Below, in pieces: positions 31,999 through 47,158 of a stretch of 64,000 nucleotides of DNA. Each line of letters starts with the position of its first letter. Position 1 is the stretch's first letter. Source of the stretch: Gordonia hongkongensis. Lineage in GTDB: Bacteria; Actinomycetota; Actinomycetes; Mycobacteriales; Mycobacteriaceae. The stretch lies in the NCBI RefSeq assembly GCF_023078355.1, contig NZ_CP095552.1:4774001-4838000 (forward strand), given 5' to 3'. The position numbers and the translations under genes were made by a program. The notes beneath the pieces are model-generated. The model had not been told where the DNA came from. It did no database searches and saw nothing but the letters and a program-made list of their open reading frames with translations.

Positions 31999-32022
31999 TA
32001 TTCTAGGGTTACCGGCGAGTAA
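31999..32022 (+). promoter_or_regulatory. fadE5 promoter with palindromic operator
   Basis: TATTCT (31999-32004) fits an actinobacterial TANNNT -10. It is followed five bases later by TTACCGGCGAGTAA (32009-32022), a palindrome that would cover the transcription start. The same palindrome class lies before fabG4/fadA2 (42214) and tetR (45281). It is 111 bp before the fadE5 ATG. Confidence 0.65.
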
Positions 32023-32133
32023 CATAGCTCGGACCGAACAGCCCCCTCATCCGGCCGGTACGCGCACAACCGTGAGCGATCGGACCGGGTCGAGGACGCC
32101 ATCGCAGACGGCCACACCAGACAAGGAACAACC

Positions 32134-33969
32134 ATGGGCCATTACAAGAGCAACATGCGCGACCTGCAGTTCAATCTCTTCGAACTGTTCGAGCTCGACA
32201 AGGTACTGGAGTCCGGCGACTTCGGGGACCTCGACCACGAGACAGCCGTCGACATGCTGCGCGAGGTCCGTGCGCTGGCCGAGGGCCCGATCGCCGAGTC
32301 CTTCGTCGACGCCGACCGCAATCCCCCGGTCTTCGACCCCGACGAGCACACCGTCACGATCCCCGAGTCGTTCAAGAAGTCGTACAACGCCCTGGTCGAG
32401 GGCGGCTGGGACAAGATCGGCATCGCCGAGGAACTCGGCGGCCTGCCGGCCCCGCGCTCGCTGTACTGGGCCATCGGCGAGATGATCCTCGGCGCCAACC
32501 CGCCCGTGTTCATGTACGCCGCCGGCGCGGGCTTCGCGAACATCTTCTACAACAACGGCACCGACGAGCAGAAGAAGTGGGCTGCCATCTGCTCCGACCG
32601 CGGCTGGGGCGCCACCATGGTGCTGACCGAGCCCGACGCCGGTTCCGACGTAGGTGCCGGACGCACCAAGGCCGTGCAGCAGGAAGACGGTTCCTGGCAC
32701 ATCGACGGTGTGAAGCGATTCATCACCTCGGCCGATCAGGACATGACCGAGAACATCTTCCACCTGGTGCTAGCCCGCCCCGAGGGCGCTGGCCCGGGCA
32801 CCAAGGGTCTGTCGCTGTTCTTCGTACCCAAGTACCACTTCGACTTCGAGACCGGCGAACTCGGCGAGCGCAACGGCGTCTTCGTCACCAACGTCGAGCA
32901 CAAGATGGGCATCAAGGCGTCCGCCACCTGTGAGGTCACCTTCGGACAGCACGGCACCCCCGCCAAGGGCTGGCTCGTCGGCGACGTCCACAAGGGCATC
33001 GCGCAGATGTTCGAGGTCATCGAGCACGCGCGGATGATGGTGGGCACCAAGGCCATCTCGACCCTGTCGACCGGTTACCTGAACGCGCTCGAGTACGCCA
33101 AGGAGCGCATCCAGGGTGCGGACATGACCCAGATGACCGACAAGGCCGCACCGCGCGTGTCGATCACCCACCACCCCGATGTGCGTCGTTCGCTGATGAC
33201 CCAGAAGGCCTACGCCGAAGGTCTGCGCGCGATCTACCTCTACACCGCGTCGCACCAGGACACCGCCGCCGCGAAGATCGTGTCCGGCGCCGATGCCGAG
33301 ATGGCCCACCGCGTCAACGATCTGCTGCTCCCGATCGTCAAGGGCGTCGGCTCCGAGCGCGCCTACGGCACCCTCGGTCACGAGTCGCTGCAGACGCTCG
33401 GCGGGTCGGGATTCCTCCAGGACTACCCGATCGAGCAGTACATCCGTGACTCGAAGATCGACTCGCTGTACGAGGGCACCACCGCCATCCAGGCCCAGGA
33501 TTTCTTCTTCCGCAAGATCATCCGCGACAAGGGCCAGGCGCTCGCGCACGTCGCCGGGCAGATCCAGAGCTTCATCGACTCCGAGGCGGGCAACGGCCGG
33601 CTGAAGACCGAGCGGGCACTGCTGAAGACGGCGCTCGACGACGTGCAGGCGATGGCTGCCTCGCTGACCAACGATCTGATGGCGGCACAGGAGAACTCGA
33701 CCGAGCTGTACAAGGTCGGACTCGGTTCGGTCCGCTTCCTGATGGCCGTCGGCGACCTGCTCATCGGCTGGCTGCTCCTCCGCCAGGCCGAGGTCGCCCT
33801 CGCAGCTCTCGACAACGGGGCCTCCGACGCCGACAAGTCCTTCTACGAGGGCAAGGTCGCCGTGGCGAGCTTCTTCGCGAAGAACATGCTCCCGCTGCTC
33901 ACCTCGGTCCGCGTCACCGTCGAGAACATCGACAATGACATCATGGAACTCGACGAAGCGGCCTTCTGA
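32134..33969 (+). CDS. fadE5: Acyl-CoA dehydrogenase FadE5
   Basis: FAD enzyme of 611 residues, the same length as M. tuberculosis FadE5 (Rv0244c), which introduces the trans-2 double bond into acyl-CoAs of varied length in beta-oxidation. The N-terminus ([20 protein letters not shown]), the flavin region [20 protein letters not shown] and the C-terminal [20 protein letters not shown] are almost diagnostic. In mycobacteria it lies beside fadA2-fabG4-htdX; here it is 7 kb away but shares their predicted operator. Followed by a strong terminator. Confidence 0.95.
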
Positions 33970-33984
33970 GCCCGACCATACTGA

Positions 33985-34024
33985 GAACTCCCACCGGCGA
34001 ATCCGCCGGTGGGAGTTCTTCTTT
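33985..34024 (+). terminator. Intrinsic terminator of fadE5
   Basis: A perfect 15-bp stem (33985-33999 with 34004-34018; arms GAACTCCCACCGGCG and its complement, loop AATC) followed by TTCTTT. It lies 16 bp after the fadE5 stop and may also serve the convergent gene. Confidence 0.9.
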
Positions 34025-34071
34025 GCGTCGAGCCCGCGCACATCGCGGCTCAGACCGGCGGTGCGGCAACT

Positions 34072-34818
34072 TCAGTCGATCACACTGAAGCAATAGCCGA
34101 CCGGGCGCGGTTTCTCCGCGAAGTAGGTCCCGTCCGAGTCGGGACATTCGGGCTCCCCCGCAGCCTTGGTGTCCACGCGGATGTTCGTTCCGCCGGAAAC
34201 CGGCGACCCGCAGTCGTTCTCACGAATGTCGGCGAGCGCGGTACCACCGGTCGCCGACGGGATGTAGTAACAACGGCCCTCCTGGTAGACCGGCGCCAGA
34301 CAGAGCGCACCCTCCTCGCCCGCGACCCAGTAGCGCGAGTAGTTGGGACCGCAGAGCCCTTGCGTGATGGACTTCTCCGCGACGACGTAGTGGAAGTCGG
34401 TGTCGCCGCAGGACACCTCGTCGGCCTTGAGGGTCTCCGGCTCCGCCGTCACGACGATGCACTCGCCGGCGTCGACGTCACTGGTGTCGGTGACCCCACC
34501 TCCCTGCGCCGACGACACCAGCACCCGCGCCACGCCACCGGCGATCACGATCAAGAGCAGCACCCCGACAATTCCCAGCGCGACCCACAAACCGGTGCGC
34601 TTCTTCTTCGGTGGCGGCGGGAACGGCGGTCCGGGCGGGTACATCCCGCCCGGCATCGGACCCGGGTACTGGGGCCGACCGCCGTAGGGCACCTGGTTCG
34701 GCGGCGGTGCGCCGTAGGGCTGGTTCGGTGGCGGGTACCTCCCGTTCGGCTGGTACTGCCCGGGTTGCGGTTGTGGCCCGAATCGCGGGTCCCCCGGCTG
34801 GTATGGCGAGTTGGTCAC
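34072..34818 (-). CDS. LppU-like membrane-anchored protein with Pro-rich N-terminus
   Basis: Protein of 248 residues. The first 70 are Pro/Gln/Tyr/Gly-rich and cytoplasmic, ending in KKKR; one helix (LWVALGIVGVLLLIVIAGGV) follows. The external domain of ~150 residues has eight Cys (GECIVV, VSCGDTD, GLCGPN, ALCLAP, GRCYY, NDCGSP, PECPD, GYCFS), probably four disulfides. This layout matches actinobacterial LppU/SCO3897-type proteins of unknown function. Confidence 0.75.
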   Translation of the reverse strand: MTNSPYQPGDPRFGPQPQPGQYQPNGRYPPPNQPYGAPPPNQVPYGGRPQYPGPMPGGMYPPGPPFPPPPKKKRTGLWVALGIVGVLLLIVIAGGVARVLVSSAQGGGVTDTSDVDAGECIVVTAEPETLKADEVSCGDTDFHYVVAEKSITQGLCGPNYSRYWVAGEEGALCLAPVYQEGRCYYIPSATGGTALADIRENDCGSPVSGGTNIRVDTKAAGEPECPDSDGTYFAEKPRPVGYCFSVID

Positions 34819-34871
34819 GCCGCGAACACTACCCGCGCGCCGGTGGCGTTACCGGACCGGCGGCCGAACTC

Positions 34872-34943
34872 GCAAACCCACCACTTTTCGGCATATCCAC
34901 CCCGTCTGAAGGGGGTGGATATGCCGAAAAGTGGTGGGTTTGC
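34872..34943. terminator. Perfect 32-bp hairpin between the LppU-like and glycerate kinase genes
   Basis: The left arm 34872-34903 and right arm 34912-34943 are exact complements, with the loop GTCTGAAG. The outer part (GCAAACCCACCAC) is shared with the hairpin at 37912. It lies seven bases past the glycerate kinase stop and upstream of the LppU-like gene. Probable terminator or transcript-end stabiliser, but far longer than needed and without a T-tract. Confidence 0.75.
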
Positions 34944-34950
34944 GCAGCGG

Positions 34951-36168
34951 TCAGACCGCCTTCTTCCGCTTCCGCTGCCCGGCCCGGGCGGAGACCGCGG
35001 CACCGAGGAGGATCATCCGCATGGTGCGCTCGGCGGCGTCGGCGAGGAGCTTCTCTCCGTTGGCGACCGCCTCCGACAAGGGCATCGGCACCGTGATGAT
35101 CGACGCGATCGCCCCGATCCCCACGTCGTGGACGGCGGGAGCACCGTGCCCGAGCGAACCCGCCAGCGCGACAACGGGCACACCCCGTAACTGGGCGCGG
35201 CGGGCCACCTCCGCGGGCACCTTGCCGCGGGGGGTCTGGAAGTCGATCGAACCCTCTGCGGTGATCACCAGATCGGCCTTGCCGATCCGATGATCGAGGT
35301 CGATGCCGGACAGCCCGGAATCGAGTAGTGCGTCGAACCGCGACCGCAGTTTCCCGCCGGCTGCCGCCAGGCCCGCACCGAGTCCACCCGACGCGCCGGA
35401 CCCGGCCCCCTGCCGATAGTCGATGTCGGCCAGCCCATCCCGCTGCAGTATGTCCGCCCAGACGTCGAGCGCCGCCGACAGCGAGTCGACCTGTGCGGGC
35501 GTCGCCCCCTTCTGCGGCCCGAAGACGCGGGCGACGCCGCTCGGTCCGCAGAGGACGTTGTGCGGGTTGCCCGCGACCACCACTTCGGTCTCACGCAACC
35601 GCGGATGCAGGCCGGTGAGGTCCAGCGACGCCGCGCGCGCCAGTTCGTTTCCGCCACGCCCGATCTCGTGACCGTCCTGGTCCAGGACGCGCGCACCGAG
35701 CGCCTGGAGCGCCCCGGCCCCGCCGTCACATGTCCCCGAGTCGCCGCATCCGACGAGAATCGCCGACACCCCCGCGTCGAGTGCCGCGGCAATCAATTGT
35801 CCCACTCCGTAAGTGGTCGTGGCGCCGGGATCGCGCTGCCCCGCCGGAACGAGCGCCAATCCAGCGGCGGCAGCCATCTCGACGACGCCGATGCGGTTCC
35901 GACCGACGCCGACCTCGGCCCAGTGCGACTGCACCGGCTCACCGGTGGGGCCGCAGACGGTCAGCTCGTGGAGGCGCCCGTTGCCCGCGGCCGCCAGGAT
36001 GCGCGCCGTTCCCTCCCCGCCGTCCGCGATCGGTGCGATGTCGACGCGCACCCCGGGGAGCGTGCGCCGCACCCCCGCGGCGATGGCGGTCGCCACGGAC
36101 ACGGCGTCGAGGCTCTCCTTGAAACCACTCGGGGCGACCAGGATTCGTTGCGGAACTCGGACGGACAT
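34951..36168 (-). CDS. Glycerate kinase (GarK/GlxK family)
   Basis: Phosphorylates glycerate with ATP in glyoxylate/allantoin or sugar-acid breakdown. Length 405 residues, slightly above the usual ~380, with family motifs: APSGFKESLDA at the start, PIADGGEGTA, GCGDSGTCDGGAGALQALG, NPHNVLCGPSGVARVFGPQKG, and EGSIDFQTPRGKVP. The ATG at 36168 has AGGAG six bases before it. It lies 94 bp below the DASS transporter gene on the same strand, suggesting uptake and use of a dicarboxylate or glycerate-like compound. Confidence 0.93.
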   Translation of the reverse strand: MSVRVPQRILVAPSGFKESLDAVSVATAIAAGVRRTLPGVRVDIAPIADGGEGTARILAAAGNGRLHELTVCGPTGEPVQSHWAEVGVGRNRIGVVEMAAAAGLALVPAGQRDPGATTTYGVGQLIAAALDAGVSAILVGCGDSGTCDGGAGALQALGARVLDQDGHEIGRGGNELARAASLDLTGLHPRLRETEVVVAGNPHNVLCGPSGVARVFGPQKGATPAQVDSLSAALDVWADILQRDGLADIDYRQGAGSGASGGLGAGLAAAGGKLRSRFDALLDSGLSGIDLDHRIGKADLVITAEGSIDFQTPRGKVPAEVARRAQLRGVPVVALAGSLGHGAPAVHDVGIGAIASIITVPMPLSEAVANGEKLLADAAERTMRMILLGAAVSARAGQRKRKKAV

Positions 36169-36262
36169 CGGCACTCCTGTTGATCGATCGGACAAGGTCT
36201 TGATGAGGAGACGGGAACTCGCACCCGGAGGCACATTCGGGACGGTCGCGGCGATGCGACGG

Positions 36263-37828
36263 TCAGGACGAGAGCAGGGGCAGACCCAGGTAGGGCCAGA
36301 CCCAGAACGCGAAGATGATGAGCAGCACCAGCGACACCGGCGCGAGCAGCGCCGACATCGTGAGCAGATGCCGGGGTTCGTAACCGGGGACGTCGTCACT
36401 CGCCGCGAACATGGCGACCGGTTTGGCCGAGCTGGTGAGGGTGATGCAGAACCCGGCGGCCGCGGTGGACAGGAAGGCCGCGGCGACGGGGTCGACCCCG
36501 ACGGCCGGGGCGGTCACCACGATGATCGGGATCAGTACCGCCGAACGGGCCGAACGGGATTGGATCACCAGATGCGCGAGCAGCGAGACGATCGCCGCGA
36601 CGACGACGAACACCATCGCCGCCGCCGGCCCGGTCTCGGCGATGGACCCGAAAGCCTGATCCGCCAGCCACTCCGCGGCACCGCTGGAGTTGAGCGCCAT
36701 CCCCAGCGCGAGGGTGGCGGCCATGAACAGCAGGAGCGTCCACGGGATGGTCTTCAGCGCCGCGCCCAGCGTCGTCGCGCCGACCGCCGGCGCCGACGCG
36801 GCCAGCGCGCCGAGCACCGCGACGATGGCCGGGTCGACGCCGTGCAGGGGTTCTGAACACCACAGCACCACAACGAGTCCGAGAACGACGGACACCCGTC
36901 GTTGAGCAGACGTGAGCGGTCCGGAGGTCGCCGTCCCGGTCGCCGCGAGAGCGGTCGGCGGCACGCACAGCGGACGTGCCCGTTCGGCGTGATCGGTCAT
37001 CAACCACAGCGCCGCCTCGGCCGCGAGGTGCCACCACACGAGGGCCAGGGGGATGCCGAGGACCGCCCAGTGCAGGAATCCGATGCCGCCACCGGTTGCG
37101 GCCGAGACGATCTCGACGGTGATGAGGTGCGCGCCGGCACCCAGAAGCGATCCCACCGCCGAGAAGAGGATCACGATCGGGAAGACCAGCGCGAGGCACA
37201 GCACCAGACGAGGTCGGTCACGCAGGACCGCAGCGAGCGCGAGAAAGATCGGAAGGGCAAGGGCCGCACGGCCGGAGGTCGCCGGGATCGCGAACGTGGT
37301 CAGCAACAGGGCCGCGGTGATCAGATGGACCAGCTGACGAGGCGTCCGGGCCCGGCGGACGACACGCGCCGACACACGAGCCGACAGACCTGACGCCGTG
37401 ACCGCGGCCGCGATCACGAAAGCACCGATCAGCAACCAGATCACGCCGGAGCCGAGGGTGCCCGCGAAGGTGTTGGCGTCGATGATCCCGAAGACCACCA
37501 GAGCGATACCGCCACCCAGCGCGACATAGGTGTCATCCAGCGGCGAGAAGATCCACGCCCACACCGCGACGAGGAAGACGAGGAGGGTGACGACGGCGTC
37601 GAACGGCAACTTCCCGGTCCACCCGGCATGTCCGACGAACGCCCCGGCGCCGAGAACGACGACGAGACCGGCTGCCGCCCAGGGGGACAGCGCGCTGCCG
37701 ACGGCGTCGAGGAGGGTGCGTCGTGGCGGCGGTGGCGGCGTCACCGTGCGCACGGGTGGGCGCGTCGCGTACATCGTCACCGAGCCCGGGTGATCCGGAG
37801 GTCGGTCGATCGCGTGCGGAAGGTTCAT
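36263..37828 (-). CDS. DASS/SLC13-type anion transporter
   Basis: Membrane protein of ~521 residues with about twelve helices and two related halves. Family-type helix-hairpin regions include IPATSGRAALALPIFLALAA and the C-terminal STAAAGFCITLTSSAKPVAM, where SNT-like motifs bind sodium and the carboxylate in characterised members (here degenerate). It probably imports di- or tricarboxylates or a related anion; pairing with glycerate kinase hints at a glycerate/tartronate-type substrate. Start uncertain: ATG at 37828 or 37774. Confidence 0.85.
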   Translation of the reverse strand: MNLPHAIDRPPDHPGSVTMYATRPPVRTVTPPPPPRRTLLDAVGSALSPWAAAGLVVVLGAGAFVGHAGWTGKLPFDAVVTLLVFLVAVWAWIFSPLDDTYVALGGGIALVVFGIIDANTFAGTLGSGVIWLLIGAFVIAAAVTASGLSARVSARVVRRARTPRQLVHLITAALLLTTFAIPATSGRAALALPIFLALAAVLRDRPRLVLCLALVFPIVILFSAVGSLLGAGAHLITVEIVSAATGGGIGFLHWAVLGIPLALVWWHLAAEAALWLMTDHAERARPLCVPPTALAATGTATSGPLTSAQRRVSVVLGLVVVLWCSEPLHGVDPAIVAVLGALAASAPAVGATTLGAALKTIPWTLLLFMAATLALGMALNSSGAAEWLADQAFGSIAETGPAAAMVFVVVAAIVSLLAHLVIQSRSARSAVLIPIIVVTAPAVGVDPVAAAFLSTAAAGFCITLTSSAKPVAMFAASDDVPGYEPRHLLTMSALLAPVSLVLLIIFAFWVWPYLGLPLLSS

Positions 37829-37874
37829 GGCGACCACTCTGCGGTGCCGGCGTGACACCTTCATGAGGCGCGAA

Positions 37875-37898
37875 TGAAAGTTCTTTCACGGAAAGAAC
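37875..37898. promoter_or_regulatory. Overlapping palindromes upstream of the transporter-glycerate kinase operon
   Basis: Two dyads share one arm: TGAAAG-TT-CTTTCA (37875-37888) and GTTCTTTCACGGAAAGAAC (37880-37898, perfect 8-bp arms around ACG). They end 47-70 bp upstream of the ATG. Probable binding site for a regulator encoded elsewhere. Confidence 0.6.
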
Positions 37899-37911
37899 CG
37901 GTGAACAGACG

Positions 37912-37949
37912 GCAAACCCACCACCGGCTCGGGCCGGTGGTGGGTCTGC
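37912..37949 (-). terminator. Hairpin terminator of the SDR gene
   Basis: Arms 37912-37928 and 37933-37949 pair over 17 bp with one mismatch; loop TCGG. It begins 26 bp after the SDR stop on the minus strand and shares the GCAAACCCACCAC outer stem with the hairpin at 34872. Confidence 0.75.
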
Positions 37950-37975
37950 GCGGTTACCCCGGTGGGGTGCCGGAT

Positions 37976-38755
37976 CTACTTCGGTGGCATCCGGATGCCA
38001 CCGTCGACGCGGATGACCTCCGCGTTCATGTAGCTGTTGGTGACCAGCTCGACGACCATCGAAGCGAGCTCGTCGGGCGCACCCAGGCGGTGCGGGAACA
38101 GGACCGACTCGCCGAGCTTGGCCTTGAACGCCTCGGCCGCTTCGCCCTCACCGTAGATCGGGGTGTCGATCAGACCGGGGGCGATGGTGTTGACGCGGAT
38201 GCCGACCGCAGCCAGGTCGCGCGCGACCGGGAGGGTCATGCCGACGACGCCGCCCTTGGACGACGAGTACGACGCCTGGCCGATCTGGCCGTCGAACGCT
38301 GCGACGCTGGCCATGTTGACGATCGCGCCGCGCTCGCCGTGGCCGTCGAGCGGCTCGTTGCGGCTCATGGCGGTGGCCGCAAGACGGATGCAGTCGAAGG
38401 TGCCGATCAGGTTGATCGCGATGACCTTCTTGTAGGCGTCGAGGTTGTGGGCCGACCCGAACTCACCGTCGCGACCGATGGTGCGCTGCGCCCAGCCGAT
38501 GCCGGCCGAGTTGACCAGGGCACGCAGCGGGCCCAGTTCGGTGGCCGCGTTGACGGCGGCTTCGATCTGTTCGGTCGAGGTCACGTCGACGGCGACGAAC
38601 TGTCCGCCGATCTCCTTGGCGAGTTCTTCGCCCTTGTCCGCGTTCAGGTCGGCGACGATGACCTTTGCACCCTTGGCCGCCAGCTGGCGAGCCGCAGCCG
38701 CGCCGATGCCGGACGCGCCACCCGTGACGATTGCACTAGCTCCATTGATATCCAC
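37976..38755 (-). CDS. Short-chain dehydrogenase, 3-hydroxyacyl-CoA dehydrogenase type II-like
   Basis: NAD-dependent SDR of 259 residues: cofactor motif [19 protein letters not shown], catalytic Ser in [10 protein letters not shown] and Tyr-Lys in ASYSSSKGG. The overall sequence resembles HSD10-type enzymes, which act on hydroxyacyl-CoA in branched amino-acid and fatty-acid breakdown. I chose the GTG at 38755 because the fold starts immediately ([13 protein letters not shown]); there is no strong ribosome site. A palindrome lies just upstream. Confidence 0.88.
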
Positions 38756-38769
38756 GCCCCGGAGCCTAT

Positions 38770-38787
38770 CGAGCGTTCTATCGCTCG
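38770..38787. promoter_or_regulatory. Inverted repeat upstream of the SDR gene
   Basis: CGAGCG-TTCTAT-CGCTCG, perfect 6-bp arms, ending 15 bp before the GTG start. The pattern resembles TetR-family operators of fatty-acid genes in actinobacteria. No regulator gene adjoins it. Confidence 0.55.
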
Positions 38788-38861
38788 GTAAAGCCCTTCG
38801 GGGAAACACCCCGCATCGAAATCCTCCACATCAGATCACCCCGCGCCGAATCACCCCGGGG

Positions 38862-40559
38862 TCAGACGCACTTCACGATGGGTTCGGGCGCGTAGCGGAC
38901 GGTGCGGGTGGACCGATCGATCTCCCGTCCGGTACGCGCGTCCTTGATGATCCGGGTGTCCGATGCCGTGAAACCCTTGCTCCCGCTGCTCGGGATGCAG
39001 TCGTCCCCGCGCGGAACGCGGACTCGCGGCGGATCGGTGGGGGCAACCCGCTCACCCGTGACCGACTCGACCTCGAACGCCTTCGTGCCCCAGAGCCGCA
39101 CCGTCACCGACGACGGCGACCAGGCGGTCTCGATCAGCACGCCATGCCGCGTGTTGTTGCGGAACTTCAGGTCGATGGCGCCTTCGAACACGGTCGCCTC
39201 CCGCGCCTCCGGGTACCGCGAGATGTAATACGCGTGTTCGGTGTGATCGACGTCCTCGAGCCCGGCGAAATACGTCGCGTTGTACAGGGTCGTCGCGAAC
39301 TGGGAGATCCCGCCGCCGACCGCGTTCGACGCCCGACCGTGGTCGATGATCGTCGACTCGACGTACCCCTGCTCCGCTCCGCGCGGCCCGGTGTGCCCGT
39401 TGAGCGAGAACACCTTTCCGGGCAGGACGAGGGCCCCGTCGACCTCGGCGGCTACGAGCCGGATGTTCTCCCCGGAAGCGCTCGAGAAGCCACCTGTGGT
39501 GTACTCGCTGATCAGTTCGGTGACCCCGAGCTTGCGCGCGGCATCGGTCGTGAGCTTCGGCTCGACGTCGTCGTAGACGACCTCGACCCTGCGATCGCCA
39601 CCGTCGGCCGCCGCACTCGTGGCGACGGCGGCGAGGGTCTTCGGCCAGTTGATCGCGGCGCCGTCGACGCCCGGCACCACCTGCGGACGGCCGGACGCCA
39701 GACTGAACGTCGCGCTGACGGGGGCCCGTTGCGAGGCGTCGAGGTCGGGGGCGAGGATCTCGCGCCCCACCTTCTCGTCGGCTCGGGGGGTGAGCCCGCC
39801 GCGGCCGTCGGGCCCGAAGGTCACCATCGACGCCAGGTCTCCCGCGGGCACCTCGACCGTCCGTTTGCGGCGGTCCACGAGACTCACGGGAGCCGCGACC
39901 ACCCGTTCGGCCGGTCCGGCGACGGTCGCGACCACGACCTCGGCGCTCACCGTCGGCGAGAAGGGTTCCATGGGCAGGTCGACGGGGGCGCCGTCCAGCC
40001 AACGGTCGACGAGGGTCGCGGCGGCAGCGTCTCGCGCGATGCGTTCACCCTTGGCGGGCTGATCCCCAACAGGCTTGGTGCCGTCGTAGTGCACACCACC
40101 CTCGACCGCGGCCTTCTCGAGTGACGCGCGCTGGGCGTCGAGCGCCGCGTTCATCGCCGTCCGATCCAGCGTGACGACCGGCTCGACGTCGAAGTCGCGG
40201 CCGAACAGCGCGGCCAGACGGACGAGCGGATTGCGCGGTTGCTCGAGGAGACGAGCCCGCGTCGCATCGGCGTCGTATGTGAGTCCCAGCTCGGCGGGCG
40301 AGACCTCGGCCGAGCCCTCCGGCGTCCGCAAGACAACCGGTTGTCGCGAACGCGCCGTCAGCTCGTCGAGTACGGAGGTGAGTTCGGCGGAGTTCCGACC
40401 GCCCGCATCGATACCGCCGACGACGGCGTTGCGTGGGGAATCGGAGCGGGTGGCCACGAACTCCGCGGCGAGGACGAGCGTGATCACGGCGACGACGGCG
40501 AGCACGGCGCGTAGCGCGGATCGTGCTCGGCGAGAGCCTGGGGTCACAACTCCATCCAT
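38862..40559 (-). CDS. VanW-family cell-wall protein
   Basis: Protein of 565 residues with an N-terminal membrane anchor ([20 protein letters not shown]). Two repeated wall-binding-like regions (each with SPAELGL- or [13 protein letters not shown] strands) follow, and then the VanW domain ([48 protein letters not shown]). VanW occurs in glycopeptide-resistance clusters, but most homologues are of unknown cell-envelope function. It stands alone, and its stop is ~75 bp from the SDR operator. Confidence 0.9.
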
Positions 40560-40857
40560 CGGGGCTGGCAGCTCGGCCGGGCTGACGACTTACCGATCAG
40601 GGGGTGGCCGCAGAACTACGGTCGGGAAAGTAGGCGCTCCGGCCGAGCTGTCGGGTCGGGGGTCTGACAGCGCAGCCGGAGCTATAGACATATTTACGCT
40701 ACTTTTCGGCCGGAGGCATCCCCGGACGGCCGATTCTGTCGAATATGTGACGAAGTACCCCGATTCGTCCCACGAAAGTGAGACGGATCGGCCGATCAGT
40801 CGCCGATCCGTCTCACTTATCGGGATTCCAGCTCCCGATGATGTCCGCTTCGGGTCG
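40560..40857. other. Intergenic region with VanW promoter patch and fadA2 terminator
   Basis: Gene-free. An AT-rich patch at 40681-40705 (reading GCGTAAATATGTCTATAG on the minus strand) is the best promoter candidate for the VanW gene. A perfect 17-bp hairpin, 40776-40792 with 40802-40818 and loop CGATCAGTC, lies 40 bp after the fadA2 stop and is its probable terminator, although no T-tract follows. Confidence 0.65.
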
Positions 40858-42171
40858 TCAGCCCTCGATGATCGCGGTGACGCCCTGGCCGCCCGCGGCA
40901 CAGATCGAAACCAGGGCGCGACCGCCGCCGTTCTCCTTGATCTGCTTGGCCGCCTGCGCGACGATCCGGCCGCCGGTCGCCGCGAAGGGGTGACCCGCCG
41001 CGAGCGACGAACCGTGGACGTTGAGCTTGCTGCGGTCGATCGAACCCAGTGCCGAGTCGAGGCCGAGGCGCTCCTTGCAGTACTCCTCGGACTCCCACGC
41101 CTGCAGGGTCGCGAGGACCACCGACGCGAAGGCCTCGTGGATCTCGTAGAAGTCGAAGTCCTGCAGCGTGAGCCCGTTGCGGGCGAGAAGACGCGGCACC
41201 GCGTAGGTCGGGGCCATGAGCAGCCCGTCGGGACCGTTGACGTAGTCGACCGCGGCGGTCTCGCTGTCCACGAAGTAGGCGAGCACCGGCAGTCCGCGGT
41301 CGGCGGCCCACTCGTCGCTGGCGAGCAGCACGGTCGACGCCCCGTCGGTGAGCGGCGTCGAGTTGCCCGCGGTCATCGTCGCGTCGCCGAGGGAGACGCC
41401 GAAGACCGGCTTGAGCTTGGCGAGCTTCTCCGCGGTGGAGTCGCCGCGCAGGTTCTGGTCGCGGGTCAGGCCCAGGAACGGGGTGATCAGGTCGTCGAAG
41501 AAGCCAGCGTCGTAGGCGGCGGCCATGTTCTGGTGGCTGCGGGCGGCCAGCTCGTCCTGGTCGGCTCGCTTGATGCCGAACTCCTTGGCCGTGACGGCGG
41601 CGTGCTCGCCCATCGACATGCCCGTGCGGGGCTCGCCGTTGCGCGGGATCTCGATGCCGAGCTTCGTCAGCAGCTTCGCGGCGCCGAGGATCTGGTCCTT
41701 GGTGCTCCGCGCGCGGTTGACCTCGAGCAGCTGACGACGCAGGCCCTCGCCCACGGCGATCGGCGCGTCCGACGTCGTGTCGACGCCACCGCCGATCGCG
41801 GCGTCGTAGCGGCCGCGGGCGATACCGTCGGCGACCGTCGTGATGGCCTGCAGTCCGGTGCCGCAGGCCTGCTGGATGTCGAACGCGGGCGTGTACGGCG
41901 ACAACGCCGAACCGAGCACCGACTCGCGGATGAGATTGAAATCACGGGCGTGCTTGAGCACGGCGCCGCCGGCGACCATGCCAAGCTGCTCGCCCTGCAG
42001 GTTGAAGCGGCTCACCAGGCCGTCGAGCGCGGCAGTGAACATCTCCTGGTTCCCGACCTTCGCGTACGCCTTGTCCTGGCGTGCGAACGGGATGCGGTTG
42101 CCGCCGAGGATCGCGACGGGACGATCGCTGCGGGTCTTCGGCTTGCTGGTGGGGTTGGACTGTTCGGCCAC
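40858..42171 (-). CDS. fadA2: Acetyl-CoA acetyltransferase FadA2-like thiolase
   Basis: Thiolase of 437 residues. The catalytic Cys lies in QQACGTGLQ, and the other active-site motifs are EIHEAFA and [10 protein letters not shown], with AAGGQG at the end. Catalyses the last step of beta-oxidation or condensation of acetyl-CoA. It is divergent from fabG4, as Rv0243 is from Rv0242c, which supports the name. GTG start with GGGAG upstream. The 90-bp divergent gap carries the TTAC...GTAA operator. Confidence 0.92.
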
Positions 42172-42208
42172 GTCGATCTCCCAAGGGTCGGGTGCGGTAT
42201 CTATAGCG

Positions 42209-42228
42209 TATTCTTACTCATCAGTAAG
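42209..42228. promoter_or_regulatory. Shared fadA2/fabG4 operator
   Basis: CTTACTCATCAGTAAG (42213-42228), a palindrome in the divergent promoter region. A TATTCT hexamer at 42209-42214 (fabG4 direction) overlaps its left arm, as a similar hexamer adjoins the fadE5 site. A repressor bound here could control both directions. Confidence 0.7.
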
Positions 42229-42261
42229 TTCGTTGTCGAACGACAGTCAGAGGAGATCAAC

Positions 42262-43626
42262 GTGGCCGCCAACGGAAACACTGGCCTGTACTCGAGCTTC
42301 GTCCATTCCGCGCCCGGCGCATTCATCGCCAAGCAGGCCGGTTTGCCCGTCCCGGCGCCGCTACGGCGCTACAAGGCCTCCGAGCCGCCGCTGCCCGGCC
42401 CCGTTCTGCTCGGCGGGTCCGGCCGGCTCGTCGAACCGCTTCGCGAGATGCTCTCGACCGAGGACTACGACCTCATCCAGAACGCCACGACCGGGCGCAG
42501 CGCCGACAAGTACGGCGGCCTCGTCTTCGACGCGACCGGAATCACCACTCCCGCCGAGTTGCGTCAGCTCTTCGAGTTCTTCCAGCCCGCGATGCGCTCG
42601 ACCGCGGCCTGCGCGCGGTTCCTGGTCATCGGCACCACGCCGGAGCTGGTCACCGACCCCTCCGAGCGCGTCGCGCAGCGTGCACTCGAGGGCTTCACCC
42701 GCTCGCTGGGCAAGGAACTCCTGAAGGGGTCCACCGTCCAGCTCGTCTACGTCTCCCCCGACGCCAAGACCGGGCTGACCGGCCTCGAGTCGACCGTGCG
42801 CTTCGTGCTGTCGGCGAAGTCGGCCTTCGTCGACGCCCAGGTCATCCGGGTCGGCGGCGCCGACGCCACCGCGCCGAAGAACTGGGACAAGCCCCTCGAG
42901 GGCAAGGTCGCCGTCGTCACCGGTGCCGCCCGCGGCATCGGTGCGACGATCGCCGAGGTCCTCTCCCGCGACGGCGCGCACGTCATTGCCGCCGATGTCC
43001 CGCAGGCCGGGGACGCCCTGTCGGAGACGGCGAACAAGGTCGGCGGCACCGCCTTCCCGCTCGATGTCACCGCGGCCGACGCCGGCGCGAAGCTCGCCGA
43101 GCACGCCCTCGAGCGGCACGGCGGCATCGACATCATCGTCAACAACGCCGGCATCACCCGCGACAAGCTGCTCGCCAACATGGACGACTCCCGCTGGGAC
43201 GCGGTCATCGCGGTCAACCTCATCGCACCGCAGACCCTCGTCGAGACGCTGCTCGAGAAGGGCGCTCTGCGCGAGGGCGGCGCCGTCGTCGACGTGTCGT
43301 CGATCGCCGGCATCGCGGGCAACCGTGGCCAGACCAATTACGGCGCCTCGAAGGCCGGTGTTATCGGCCTCGTCGACGCCTACGCGCCGATCCTCGCCGA
43401 GAAGGGCATCACCATCAACGCGGTGGCGCCCGGCTTCATCGAGACCAAGATGACCGCGGCCATCCCGCTCGCGACCCGTGAGGCCGGTCGCCTGATGAGC
43501 TCGCTGCAGCAGGGCGGTCAGACCGTCGACGTCGCCGAGACCGTGGCCTACTTCGCCAACCCGGCGAGCAATGCCATCACCGGCAATGTGGTCCGCGTCT
43601 GCGGCCAGGGATTCCTGGGGGCCTGA
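42262..43626 (+). CDS. fabG4: High-molecular-weight 3-oxoacyl reductase FabG4
   Basis: Protein of 454 residues, the length of M. tuberculosis FabG4 (Rv0242c). A flavodoxin-like, catalytically silent N-terminal half (~1-210) precedes an SDR half with [22 protein letters not shown], catalytic Ser in [11 protein letters not shown] and Tyr-Lys in NYGASKAG. FabG4 prefers NADH and 3-oxoacyl-CoA. GTG start with AGGAG eight bases upstream. Its TGA overlaps the htdX ATG, so the two are coupled. Confidence 0.95.
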
Positions 43627-44513
43627 TGGGCAAGACGATCACCCTCCCGTCCGCACCCGGCACCGCCGAGCTGTACGGCAAGGCGGTCACCGCGCTGCTG
43701 CCCGGCATCGGCAAGCCGCCACGGGTGCCGGCCGACGCCACCGCACCCGAGACGCGTTACCGGCTCGACGGCGTGCGGGTGGATTCGACTGCGCTGCAGG
43801 CGTATTGCCACGCGACCGGGCAGCGGTTCGGCGGCACCCTGCCGCTGACGTATCCGTTCGTGCTGCAGTTCCCGGTCGTCATGAAGCTCATGACGTCCGA
43901 CGAGTTCCCGTTCGGCGCCGTCGGTTCGGTGCACATGACGAACACCATCGAGCGCACGCGGCCCATCGAGGTCGGTGAGCCGCTCGACATCGTCACGCAT
44001 GCACAGAACCTGCGCGAGCACCGCAAGGGCATCCTGATCGACGTCGTCAGCGAGATCCGCGTCGGATCGGAACTTGTCACCACCCAGACGGCGACGTTCC
44101 TGAAGCAGCAGCGCACCAGCCTGTCCGACGAGCCGCGGGGTCCCGAACCGAAGTCGAAGACCCCGCCGCCGCCGGACGCCATCCTGGCCGTCGACCTCAA
44201 GCGGATCCGCGAGTACGCCGCCGCCTCCGGCGACCGCAACCCGATCCACATGGGCAACCTGCCGGCCAAGGCCTTCGGCTTCCCCAAGGCGATCGCCCAC
44301 GGGATGTGGAGTGCCGCAGCAGCTGTCGCGAACGTGGAGGCGCAACTGCCCGACGCCGTGACCTACGACGTCAGGTTCGGCAAGCCGATCCTGTTGCCGG
44401 CCAAGGTGAACCTGTACACCCGCCGCATCGACGGAAAGGGGAGCTTCGACATCGCGATCCGCGACCGCCGCAAGGGATTCCCGCACCTCACCGCGACGAC
44501 GCGGGAGGGCTGA
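43626..44513 (+). CDS. htdX: 3-hydroxyacyl dehydratase HtdX (MaoC family)
   Basis: Double-hotdog (R)-hydratase of 295 residues; the C-terminal half carries the hydratase-2 motif (YAAASGDRNPIHMG, then AKAFGFPKAIAHGMW) with catalytic Asp and His. It matches Rv0241c in position after fabG4. Together with FadE5, FabG4 and FadA2 it could supply a full acyl-CoA oxidation or reversed-synthesis cycle. Followed by a hairpin shared with the convergent tetR. Confidence 0.92.
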   Translation: MGKTITLPSAPGTAELYGKAVTALLPGIGKPPRVPADATAPETRYRLDGVRVDSTALQAYCHATGQRFGGTLPLTYPFVLQFPVVMKLMTSDEFPFGAVGSVHMTNTIERTRPIEVGEPLDIVTHAQNLREHRKGILIDVVSEIRVGSELVTTQTATFLKQQRTSLSDEPRGPEPKSKTPPPPDAILAVDLKRIREYAAASGDRNPIHMGNLPAKAFGFPKAIAHGMWSAAAAVANVEAQLPDAVTYDVRFGKPILLPAKVNLYTRRIDGKGSFDIAIRDRRKGFPHLTATTREG

Positions 44514-44527
44514 GGGCTCTCGCCTTT

Positions 44528-44599
44528 CGCTCCCGCGGTCTCGTTTCCGTCCCGCTTATTGGATCCAATCAGCGGATAGGAAGCGGGGCCGCGGGAGCG
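44528..44599. terminator. Nested hairpin between htdX and tetR
   Basis: Outer arms CGCTCCCGCGG (44528-44538) and CCGCGGGAGCG (44589-44599) enclose a near-perfect 24-bp palindrome at 44552-44575 (arms CCGCT and ATTGG around a central AT, one mismatch). Placed between convergent genes, it probably terminates both. Confidence 0.75.
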
Positions 44600-44627
44600 T
44601 TTGCGTTGCACCTCAGGTGTCGACACT

Positions 44628-45230
44628 TCAGGCGTCGGTACCGACGCCCTTCAGGCCGCGCCAGGTGATGCCGACGAGGAGGTTGGTGGCCTTCTCGAGG
44701 TCGACGTCACCCTCCGTGATGCGGTCGGCGACGGCCTCGGCGGCGCCGACGATCGACACGGCGGTGAGTTCGAAGTCGATGTCGCTGTCGACCTCGACGG
44801 TCGTGCCCGCCTTGATCAGTTGGGCGACCATCTCGGTGACCCGCTGGCGGCTCTCGGAGACGATGCCGGCGAAACCGGCGGTGCCGATGGCGACGCGGTA
44901 CAGCACCCGCCAGGACTGCCGGTGCTCGTGCACGAAGCGGAGGAACTCACGGATCACCGTGACGGCCTGCTCACGTTGCGACAGCGACGGGTCGAAACCG
45001 ACGCTCATCGCGTCGATGAACAGACCGGACTCACGGGCGATGCACGCACTGAACAGTTCGTCCTTCGAGCCGTAGTACAGGTACAGCATCGGCTTGGAGA
45101 TCTGCGCCTCGGATGCGATGGCGTCCATCGAGGTCTCGCGAAAACCGTTCTGCGCGAACACCTTGACGGCCGCATCGAGCATCTGCTGCTCGCGCACCGC
45201 GCGGGGCAGGCGCTTGGTTCCGCCCGACAT
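44628..45230 (-). CDS. TetR-family regulator (Rv0238 type)
   Basis: Protein of 200 residues. HTH: MDAIASEAQISKPMLYLYYGSKDELF, residues ~36-61. The position between htdX and lpqI equals Rv0238. ATG at 45230 chosen: GGAGGT lies seven bases upstream. A palindrome TTACCAATCGGTAA sits 51-64 bp upstream, the same class as before fadE5 and between fadA2 and fabG4. I infer it is an autorepressor that also controls these lipid genes. Confidence 0.9.
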   Translation of the reverse strand: MSGGTKRLPRAVREQQMLDAAVKVFAQNGFRETSMDAIASEAQISKPMLYLYYGSKDELFSACIARESGLFIDAMSVGFDPSLSQREQAVTVIREFLRFVHEHRQSWRVLYRVAIGTAGFAGIVSESRQRVTEMVAQLIKAGTTVEVDSDIDFELTAVSIVGAAEAVADRITEGDVDLEKATNLLVGITWRGLKGVGTDA

Positions 45231-45280
45231 GACCGCCACCTCCGTTCACGACTTCTGTTCCGTCCGACGATATCAACAAC

Positions 45281-45294
45281 TTACCAATCGGTAA
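45281..45294 (-). promoter_or_regulatory. tetR autoregulatory operator candidate
   Basis: TTACCAATCGGTAA, a palindrome between lpqI (stop 45339) and the tetR start. It fits the consensus TTACYNRYSRGTAA built from the three sites in this window. Confidence 0.65.
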
Positions 45295-45338: not shown

Positions 45339-46571
45339 TCAACAGTTCACCACACCCTTGGATCGAAGGATTCGCACGACCTTGTCGTCGAGTCGTGCCG
45401 GCGCCAGGCGACCCGCTGACACCGCGCGTTCGAGATTGTCGAGCACCGACGAGACACGGTCGGTCGACAGCCACAGCGCGATGTCGCCGCCGGCGAGGAT
45501 GAACTTCTCCACCGCCTGCTCGATGGGGTACTGGGCGCTGATCGCCGCCATGCCCGACAGGTCGTCGGAGTAGATGACGCCGTTGAACCGCGGACCGTCG
45601 TAGCCGACGCCGGTGCGCAACATCTGGATCGCGGGCCGGCTGATGCTGGCGGGCAGTCCCTTCGTCAGACCGGGCACGATCAGGTGCCCGACCATGGCGC
45701 CCGCGGTCCCCGGGTCGCGCAACAGCGTCCGGAACGGCACGAGGTCGCTGTCCTGCAGCTCCGCGAGCGACGGAACCGTCACAACGCCGAGATGCGAGTC
45801 GCCCGACCCGTGTCCGTGACCCGGAAAGTGCTTGTACACAGGCGTGATTCCCGCGTCGGCCAGCCCCGCGGCGTACGCGCCCGCGTACTCGGTGACGACG
45901 GCCGGGTCGTTGCTGAAGGACCGGTCGCCGATCACCTCGTTGTCCGATTCGTCGCTGACGTCGGCGACGGGAGCGAAGTCGACGGTGACCCCGAGCCGCT
46001 TGAGCTTGCGGCCCACATCGGCCGCGATCGCCCGCACCTGCTCGGGCGTCTTGGTCTGGGCGAGTTCACGAGCCGAGGCGTGGTCGATGCCGAGCGCGGA
46101 CAGGCGCGACACCCGCCCGCCCTCCTGATCGACGGTGACCATCAGCGGGATCGGCGAGTTCTGCGAAATACGTGCTGCCGCACCGCTCGTCAGAATCGCC
46201 TTGTCGGTCCAGCTCCCGACGAAGATCCCGCCGATCTCCTCGTTCTCGACGATCTGCTGGGCGTCGGCCGCCCCGGTCACGCCGACGACGATCAGCTGCG
46301 CCAGCTTCTGGCGTACGGACAGCTTCGCGAGTTCGCTTGCGCCACAGCTGTTTGCGACCGGAACGGTCGTCGGCGACGCCGACGAAGACGCCGAGGCGTA
46401 CGACGACGCCGAGGACGAGGGAGTCGGCGGCGGTGAGTCGGGCGTCGATGACGCGCACGCCGCCAGCGCCGCGCACAGTACGGCGACCGTCCCCGTCGTC
46501 ATCGCATTCCGGATCCGGTTGTCACGGATCCCTTCGCGACGAATCCGCCGGGGTCTGCGAGTTGGGCCCAT
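45339..46571 (-). CDS. lpqI: Beta-N-acetylglucosaminidase lipoprotein LpqI (GH3, NagZ type)
   Basis: Removes N-acetylglucosamine from muropeptides during peptidoglycan recycling. About 410 residues: an Arg-rich n-region, a short hydrophobic core and lipobox ALAAC (Cys39), a Ser/Pro linker, then the GH3 barrel. Motifs: VDQEGGRVSRL, the His-Asp dyad loop KHFPGHGHGSGDSH, and the nucleophile Asp in IYSDDLSGMAA. Equivalent to Rv0237. Only 29 bp separate its ATG from the divergent stress-protein ATG, so one start may be further inside. Confidence 0.93.
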   Translation of the reverse strand: MGPTRRPRRIRREGIRDNRIRNAMTTGTVAVLCAALAACASSTPDSPPPTPSSSASSYASASSSASPTTVPVANSCGASELAKLSVRQKLAQLIVVGVTGAADAQQIVENEEIGGIFVGSWTDKAILTSGAAARISQNSPIPLMVTVDQEGGRVSRLSALGIDHASARELAQTKTPEQVRAIAADVGRKLKRLGVTVDFAPVADVSDESDNEVIGDRSFSNDPAVVTEYAGAYAAGLADAGITPVYKHFPGHGHGSGDSHLGVVTVPSLAELQDSDLVPFRTLLRDPGTAGAMVGHLIVPGLTKGLPASISRPAIQMLRTGVGYDGPRFNGVIYSDDLSGMAAISAQYPIEQAVEKFILAGGDIALWLSTDRVSSVLDNLERAVSAGRLAPARLDDKVVRILRSKGVVNC

Positions 46572-46600
46572 GGCTCGAGTCTGGCATGTAGCCTGAGCCA

Positions 46601-47158
46601 ATGGACGTGGGGTCCGTTTCGTCCGGGTCCGCCACCGCCGGCGGCGGTAGCGGCGCCAAGGGTGCCGCACAAACCCTGATGATCGCCTATGACGGGTCTC
46701 CCAACGCCGACCGCGCCATTCGCTACGCCGGTCATTTCCTCCGTGCCCGCTCAGCTGTCGTCGTCACCGCGTGGCAGCCCGGCGCGATGACGCCGGCACG
46801 CATGTCCACCCTCGCCGGTGGGATGCAACCCTTCATCGACACCCAGCTCGACGTCGGCGTCGACCAGGCCCTCGAGGAAGAAGCCGCCTCGATCAACGAA
46901 CGGGGCGTGGCCCTCGCCGTCGACTGTGGGCTGGCCGCACGCGGATCGCTCGTCGAGGTCGAGTCGACGGTGTGGGGGGCGCTCGTCGCCGCGGCCGAGG
47001 CGCTGAACGTAGATCTTCTGGTCACCGGAACGCGCGGCGCATCGGGACTCAAGGCTCTGCTGCGGTCCAGCGTCGCCGAACGGGTCCTCAAACACTGTCA
47101 TCGACCGGTGTTCATCGTTCCCGCGAAGTGCGAGAAAGAACCGCAGGTCACGCTGTAG
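46601..47158 (+). CDS. Universal stress protein (UspA)
   Basis: Single-domain Usp of up to 185 residues. The strand-one Asp is in LMIAYDGSPNADRAI, and the ATP-binding signature is GTRGASGLKALLRSSVAERV with the usual Gly spacing, followed by PVFIVP. The first 25 residues are Gly/Ser-rich and may not be translated; an internal ATG at 46679 (MIAYDGS) is an alternative. It is followed by dispersed repeats. Confidence 0.88.
   Translation: MDVGSVSSGSATAGGGSGAKGAAQTLMIAYDGSPNADRAIRYAGHFLRARSAVVVTAWQPGAMTPARMSTLAGGMQPFIDTQLDVGVDQALEEEAASINERGVALAVDCGLAARGSLVEVESTVWGALVAAAEALNVDLLVTGTRGASGLKALLRSSVAERVLKHCHRPVFIVPAKCEKEPQVTL

Follow-up and report, generated by a model that had tools for sequence, protein, structure and literature searches.

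FdmR, a regulator of the TetR family, was reportedly characterised in Mycobacterium marinum by Dong et al. (2021, PNAS). In the published record, FdmR is the product of Rv0238 and a long-chain acyl-CoA-responsive repressor of fatty-acid degradation (PMC12403877). It is described as a key regulator of fadE5, together with an M. marinum mutant (PMC9262360), and Rv0238 is listed with four other TetR regulators as conserved in every mycobacterium studied (PMC4482099). A second regulator, FasR (Rv3208), also belongs to the TetR family and also has a long-chain acyl-CoA ligand, but it is an activator, of fas-acpS (PMC7382501). Here, we describe a set of 14-bp operator-like sites, and the tetR gene that accompanies them, in a 64,000-nucleotide stretch of the Gordonia hongkongensis genome (“the window”). 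These very probably belong to an FdmR-type regulon, in which a TetR counterpart of FdmR would repress the genes behind the operators and acyl-CoA would release it. The regulon is thus the Gordonia member of a system already published in mycobacteria, of which the preliminary description of the window was unaware. The parts of interest are its extension to etfB, etfD and malate synthase, a difference between lineages at the tetR promoter, and the puzzle posed by one genus, g8.

The preliminary description had proposed three 14-bp palindromes: one before fadE5, one between fadA2 and fabG4-htdX, and one before tetR. A pattern search of the window finds all three, and the same search of 100 shuffles of the stretch finds none. 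The sites and the genes around them are as follows.

31999..32004, plus strand: TATTCT, −10-like hexamer of the presumed fadE5 promoter, read directly
32009..32022, no strand assigned: operator before fadE5, TTACCGGCGAGTAA, exact pattern match
32134..33969, plus strand: fadE5-like acyl-CoA dehydrogenase, 611 amino acids (aa; Pfam Acyl-CoA_dh_M/1/C)
40858..42171, minus strand: fadA2-like acetyl-CoA C-acetyltransferase (thiolase), 437 aa (NCBIfam NF006740, 765.6 bits, cut-off 539)
42209..42214, plus strand: TATTCT, −10-like hexamer of the presumed fabG4 promoter, read directly
42214..42227, no strand assigned: operator in the divergent fadA2 / fabG4-htdX promoter region, TTACTCATCAGTAA, exact match
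42262..43626, plus strand: fabG4-like 3-oxoacyl-ACP (acyl carrier protein) reductase, 454 aa (NCBIfam NF006110, 676.9 bits, cut-off 410)
43626..44513, plus strand: htdX-like MaoC-domain protein, 295 aa (Pfam MaoC_dehydratas)
44628..45239, minus strand: tetR, 203 aa, putative FdmR (Rv0238) counterpart and presumed repressor (Pfam TetR_N + TetR_C_46)
45281..45294, no strand assigned: operator before tetR, in the lpqI-tetR gap, TTACCAATCGGTAA, exact match
45339..46670, minus strand: lpqI-like beta-N-acetylhexosaminidase, which serves as a synteny marker and is not counted in the regulon (NCBIfam NF003740, 154.4 bits, below the cut-off of 207)

The enzyme and protein classes returned by Pfam and NCBIfam agree with the identities first given to fadE5, fadA2, fabG4, htdX and TetR; the four gene names themselves are those of the preliminary description, the family models yielding enzyme class only. 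The term “palindrome” holds for the arms, with TTAC and GTAA perfect in all three sites, but not for the sites as wholes: the centre is variable, and a hand count gives 10 of 14 self-complementary positions at fadE5 and 12 of 14 at both fabG4 and tetR. Two sites do have TATTCT next to them, as described earlier. The hexamer ends 4 bases ahead of the fadE5 site, and on the fabG4 side it shares the first T of the operator (a 1-base overlap).

The sites are strongly conserved in relatives. We compared 80 loci (1,539,885 bases), the best 80 of 583 confirmed places, picked by TetR similarity; they are mutually related and include eight loci of Mycobacterium/Mycolicibacterium species other than M. 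tuberculosis and M. marinum. All 155 exact matches to the core TTACYNNNNRGTAA fall within 200 bp before tetR, fadA2, fabG4 or fadE5 (reversed control, 1), and with one mismatch allowed, 182 of 192 sites are at these promoters (control, 9). At the fadA2/fabG4 promoter, the core is exact in 71 of 71 evaluable loci from 11 genus labels. At fadE5, it is exact in 17 of 19 evaluable loci and within one mismatch in all 19; before tetR, the corresponding counts are 66 and 73 of 80. A further 30 family loci gave similar numbers for tetR (23 exact, 29 within one mismatch, control 0). The motif is therefore kept at orthologous promoters and is not frequent elsewhere in these loci, so two of the observations that the preliminary description had named as refuting its model do not hold. 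Sites before fadE5 can also be paired, 27 bp apart in 10 Nocardia loci and 25–26 bp apart in five Mycobacterium/Mycolicibacterium loci and one Antrihabitans. The palindromes might be chance occurrences or general promoter features with no common regulator, since they are intergenic and lie beside −10-like hexamers. This has next to no probability given that shuffled and reversed-pattern controls are near zero, that conservation at fadA2/fabG4 is unbroken, and that the same core precedes unlinked genes of one pathway (see below).

The position of the fabG4 operator bears on the direction of regulation. Across 70 distinct loci, this operator abuts or overlaps a TANNNT hexamer, with an offset of −5 in 57% and of −10 in 37% (positional mean, 2.3%). 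A site at a −10-like element would suit repression by blocking polymerase. For the fadE5 hexamer, TANNNT is found at the same offset in <20% of the other fadE5 loci. Some lipid genes are under TetR-type activators, and the TetR of the window could activate its targets as FasR does at fas-acpS; however, we consider this very unlikely, because the fabG4 operator lies where it would block polymerase in most loci and because FdmR, the published orthologue, is a repressor. Directly 3′ of the fabG4 operator, GTTNNTTGTCGA (window 42228–42239) is kept across genera; it could represent the −35 region for fadA2 transcription, or a site for another factor.

Judged by sequence and gene order, the TetR at 44628–45239 corresponds in synteny to mycobacterial FdmR. 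Of 65 loci spanning at least 20 kb, 62 (Mycobacterium among them) have an lpqI-like gene immediately upstream of tetR in the same orientation, and of 73 loci in which the distance could be measured, 65 have htdX converging on tetR within 3.5 kb. In the 80-locus set, htdX, fabG4 and fadA2 lie beyond tetR on the side opposite lpqI, so that the order lpqI-tetR-htdX-fabG4-fadA2 is common to Gordonia and Mycobacterium loci. The two systems also share fadE5 and other fatty-acid degradation genes as targets, in Gordonia by operator presence and in mycobacteria by the published account; a feature of the Gordonia locus is the 6.9 kb between fadE5 and fadA2. The protein itself is 97% identical to one from Gordonia sp. 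‘Campus’ and 93% identical to one from G. namibiensis, and close orthologues are present in 91 of 101 family genomes (E ≤8e-31, 41–100% identity), the next matches starting at 2e-22. Site conservation and FdmR synteny together support the TetR-controlled regulon first proposed for the window. A locus labelled Kitasatospora arboriphila (L080) has the same gene order and a TetR 70% identical to that of Gordonia; it is possibly a mislabelled or mixed assembly.

The best match among solved structures, by sequence, is PDB 3f1b (near full-length, 233.7 bits, E 1.7e-68). The entry is named ‘TetR-like transcriptional regulator’, a name that gives no function; we take its source organism to be Rhodococcus, and it is probably the structure of an FdmR orthologue. 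The next-best structures, 6o6p and 6o6n/6o6o, are labelled only as TetR family regulators and are presumably FasR. We considered whether the TetR of the window is itself FasR. It scores 80.3 bits on the FasR model NF053731, against a cut-off of 330, and the genome encodes FasR as a separate gene at C1:3824121 (L316; 352.2 bits), which rules this identity out. The two proteins remain alike in family and, by analogy, in their long-chain acyl-CoA ligand.

A genome-wide search extends the set of targets. The genome comprises 5,409,529 bases in two contigs, and the control was the pattern read backwards. The pattern of the preliminary description, which had called for such a search, occurs at four places (control, 0 forward and 1 reverse): the three sites in the window and one at C1:3578974, centred 43 bp upstream of etfB, the gene for the beta subunit of electron transfer flavoprotein (ETF; NCBIfam NF040731, 158 bits, below the cut-off of 445). 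All four places therefore precede fatty-acid oxidation genes or the regulator. As a definition of the operator, this exact consensus is too narrow and was abandoned, because the two central bases carry almost no information and the strict form left many orthologous promoters apparently empty. A profile of the 80 loci has strong TTAC/GTAA arms with adjoining Y and R, and two central positions that are nearly free of information.

The looser core TTACYNNNNRGTAA occurs at eight places (control, 1). In addition to the four pattern sites, there are two sites 23 bp apart before a fadE24-fadE23 pair, one before a second fadE23-like gene, and one at C1:986763, which overlaps the start of a frame that we take to be carboxylesterase-like and which we treat as probable chance rather than as an operator. 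The names fadE23 and fadE24 are assigned by resemblance. The idea that fadE23 has been split off from its fadE24 partner here was rejected: the two stand together behind their two operators, and the remaining gene is an additional fadE23-like copy with 71% identity. Exact sites before fadE24 were also found in three genomes of one genus and in one g8 genome. Allowing at most one mismatch to TTACYNRYNRGTAA gives 27 places versus 14 in the control, and chance would therefore account for roughly half of this class. Its members include sites upstream of malate synthase G, an EtfD-like Fe-S protein, a ferredoxin-reductase-like gene, a DUF4442 protein, an enoyl-CoA hydratase, sucB, and an acyl-CoA-oxidase-like gene. 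Calling of open reading frames (ORFs) was rough, with two of the four known sites (etfB and fabG4) falling inside spurious opposite-strand frames; calls of sites as being “inside a gene” are therefore weak.

Because of this chance expectation, etfB, etfD and glcB (malate synthase) were examined in relatives. Each gene was searched for in 61 family genomes, and the best 30 of the 59, 61 and 57 matches listed, respectively, were examined. For etfB, the site is exact in 29 of 30 loci and within one mismatch in all 30. For the etfD-like gene, it is exact in 20 of 30 and within one mismatch in 27 of 29, one locus (L206) dropping out because its contig ends there. Reversed patterns and the first 270 coding bases gave 0 of 30 for both genes, and shuffled upstream regions give an expectation of 0.38 (etfB) and 0.34 (etfD) of 30. 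For glcB, 7 of 30 loci have an exact site and 21 have one within one mismatch (control, 0). The etfD sites are often paired, 24–25 bp apart in many genomes and 15 bp apart in two Gordonia genomes, one g7 genome and the g8 genomes. The EtfD-like protein has Fe-S domains, and it is from these and from resemblance that we take the gene to be etfD (Rv0338c), which encodes a membrane oxidoreductase.

ETF accepts electrons from acyl-CoA dehydrogenases, and both EtfD and EtfBA are required for acyl-CoA dehydrogenase activity (PMC8593149). In the parts available, neither PMC8593149 nor PMC13083937 mentions FdmR, and a literature search found no link between FdmR and etfB or etfD. The primary FdmR paper lay outside the scope of that search, and we therefore do not claim the link as unpublished. 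A search for the combined gene set fadE5-fadA2-fabG4-htdX gave no match in the literature.

The operator and the regulator also co-occur. We counted the original pattern in 101 family genomes; it is present in 94, at 484 places versus 47 for the control. It was found in 90 of 91 genomes with the TetR versus 4 of 10 without (Fisher p 1.1e-6, uncorrected for relatedness). The only genome with the TetR and no strict site, G019, has a core site before etfB (L185). The four genomes with the pattern and no TetR are G002 (one place; control 10 and 1), G014 (66% complete) and two genomes of genus g8. This co-occurrence, like the sites, their positions, their conservation and the synteny, is a direct observation. 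To assign sites to genes, we used 79 stretches holding strict sites, among the matches listed, from 20 genomes other than the Gordonia source; loci L025–L033, from nine further genomes, lie outside this sample. Forty-four of these sites precede a gene of the set defined in the Gordonia genome: etfB (9), etfD (9), tetR (6), fadE5 (6), fadA2/fabG4 (4), DUF4442 (3), fadE24 (3), the ferredoxin reductase (2) and an SDR/AurF pair (2).

Several observations sit uneasily with the proposed regulon. First, the other 35 of these 79 listed sites lie outside the defined gene set; some of them, inside rough-called ORFs, may be chance. Second, in the Gordonia genome itself, the etfD and glcB sites carry one mismatch and so belong to the chance-prone class. 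Third, none of the eight Mycobacterium/Mycolicibacterium loci has an exact tetR site and three have one within one mismatch, and Mycobacterium is the source of the functional data. The earlier proposal of autorepression has support outside Mycobacterium, where the site precedes tetR in most loci, and the conserved tetR-promoter site sets Gordonia apart from the mycobacterial system. Fourth, no FdmR-like gene was found in the two g8 genomes despite perfect sites.

Ten proteins beside ten of the sites outside the gene set were identified: an acyl-CoA dehydrogenase, an aldehyde dehydrogenase, an SDR, an FAD oxidoreductase, two biotin carboxylases, a TetR paralogue, a CHAD/CYTH protein, an ABC transporter and a methyltransferase. 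In genus g24, clusters of four operator-like sites, exact or with one mismatch and two of them 15 bp apart, occur at L436:3058–3204 and L437:5990–6138, between a gene that starts like a biotin carboxylase and an amidase-like frame. The distant TetR paralogue, in one g24 genome (L430:1322–1942), is itself preceded, at 69 bp, by an exact TTAC-N6-GTAA site. In genus g4, a site recurs beside a CHAD/CYTH-type gene (L386, L381, L388), assigned by Pfam in L386 and by similar start in the others.

The g8 genomes, G007 and G037 (L288–L297, L317, L319, L321, L322), have exact sites at two tandem fadE5-like copies, at etfB and, in tandem 15 bp apart, at etfD, with the fadE24 site in G037 only. Their best helix-turn-helix matches are FasR-like, with 266.5 and 263.6 bits on the FasR model (cut-off 330). 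Sites without FdmR argue against an exclusive tie between operator and FdmR, or point to replacement of the regulator. Together with the g24 paralogue that has its own site, they are the grounds for supposing that the sites serve another fatty-acid TetR regulator, FasR or a paralogue, alone or alongside the TetR of the window. This is improbable. The site precedes tetR itself in all but a few of the 80 loci, it tracks the TetR across the census, and the Gordonia FasR is a separate gene. Moreover, a FasR-like gene is present in the two g5 genomes and in G033 (177, 176 and 110 bits), all of which lack both FdmR and the sites, so FasR alone does not explain the sites.

The arrangement of fadE5 relative to the cluster varies. 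In the window, fadA2 and fadE5 are convergent and 6.9 kb apart, with genes for a glycerate kinase and a DASS-type symporter, a gene without a Pfam match, and a VanW-domain gene between them. The preliminary description held that fadE5 had moved ~7 kb away and kept its site. The site is indeed present, but “moved” has no polarity, because the gap varies among genera: 3.9–5.7 kb in five Gordonia, 2.6–5.5 kb in five Rhodococcus, 3.2 kb in one Antrihabitans, 5.1 kb in one Tsukamurella, and 0.3–3.4 kb in five Mycobacterium/Mycolicibacterium loci. These gaps come from the 30 of 80 loci with both genes inside the fetched flank, larger gaps being invisible. A better example of a site surviving a real rearrangement is Nocardia (n=13), in which the fadE5-like gene is 9.4–15.2 kb off on the other side and the site is within one mismatch in 10 of 10 evaluable loci, and exact in 9.

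By analogy with published FdmR, from which binding, repression and ligand are taken, a TetR dimer would bind the operators TTAC-Y-N4-R-GTAA at the fadE5, fadA2, fabG4-htdX and tetR promoters and repress them, and long-chain acyl-CoA would be expected to release it. The same operator also precedes etfB, the fadE24-fadE23 pair, the second fadE23-like gene, malate synthase, and probably the etfD-like gene. The dehydrogenases, their electron outlet and the glyoxylate shunt would then be induced jointly as acyl-CoA accumulates. The most evenly conserved targets include etfBA and etfD, besides the dehydrogenases, which suggests a more speculative reading, to which we give somewhat less than even weight: that FdmR is an electron valve matching ETF/EtfD capacity to acyl-CoA oxidation across the family, and that in g8 another regulator took over the operators after FdmR was lost.

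The comparison indicates that a repressor circuit investigated for its part in the virulence of mycobacteria occurs widely in the family, also in environmental genera such as Gordonia and Rhodococcus. It further indicates that acyl-CoA dehydrogenases depend for their electron outlet on a route, ETF/EtfD, that carries this operator too. The outcome is an operator code that is sharp and open to testing in a laboratory genus, along with a lineage whose operators have outlived a recognisable regulator.

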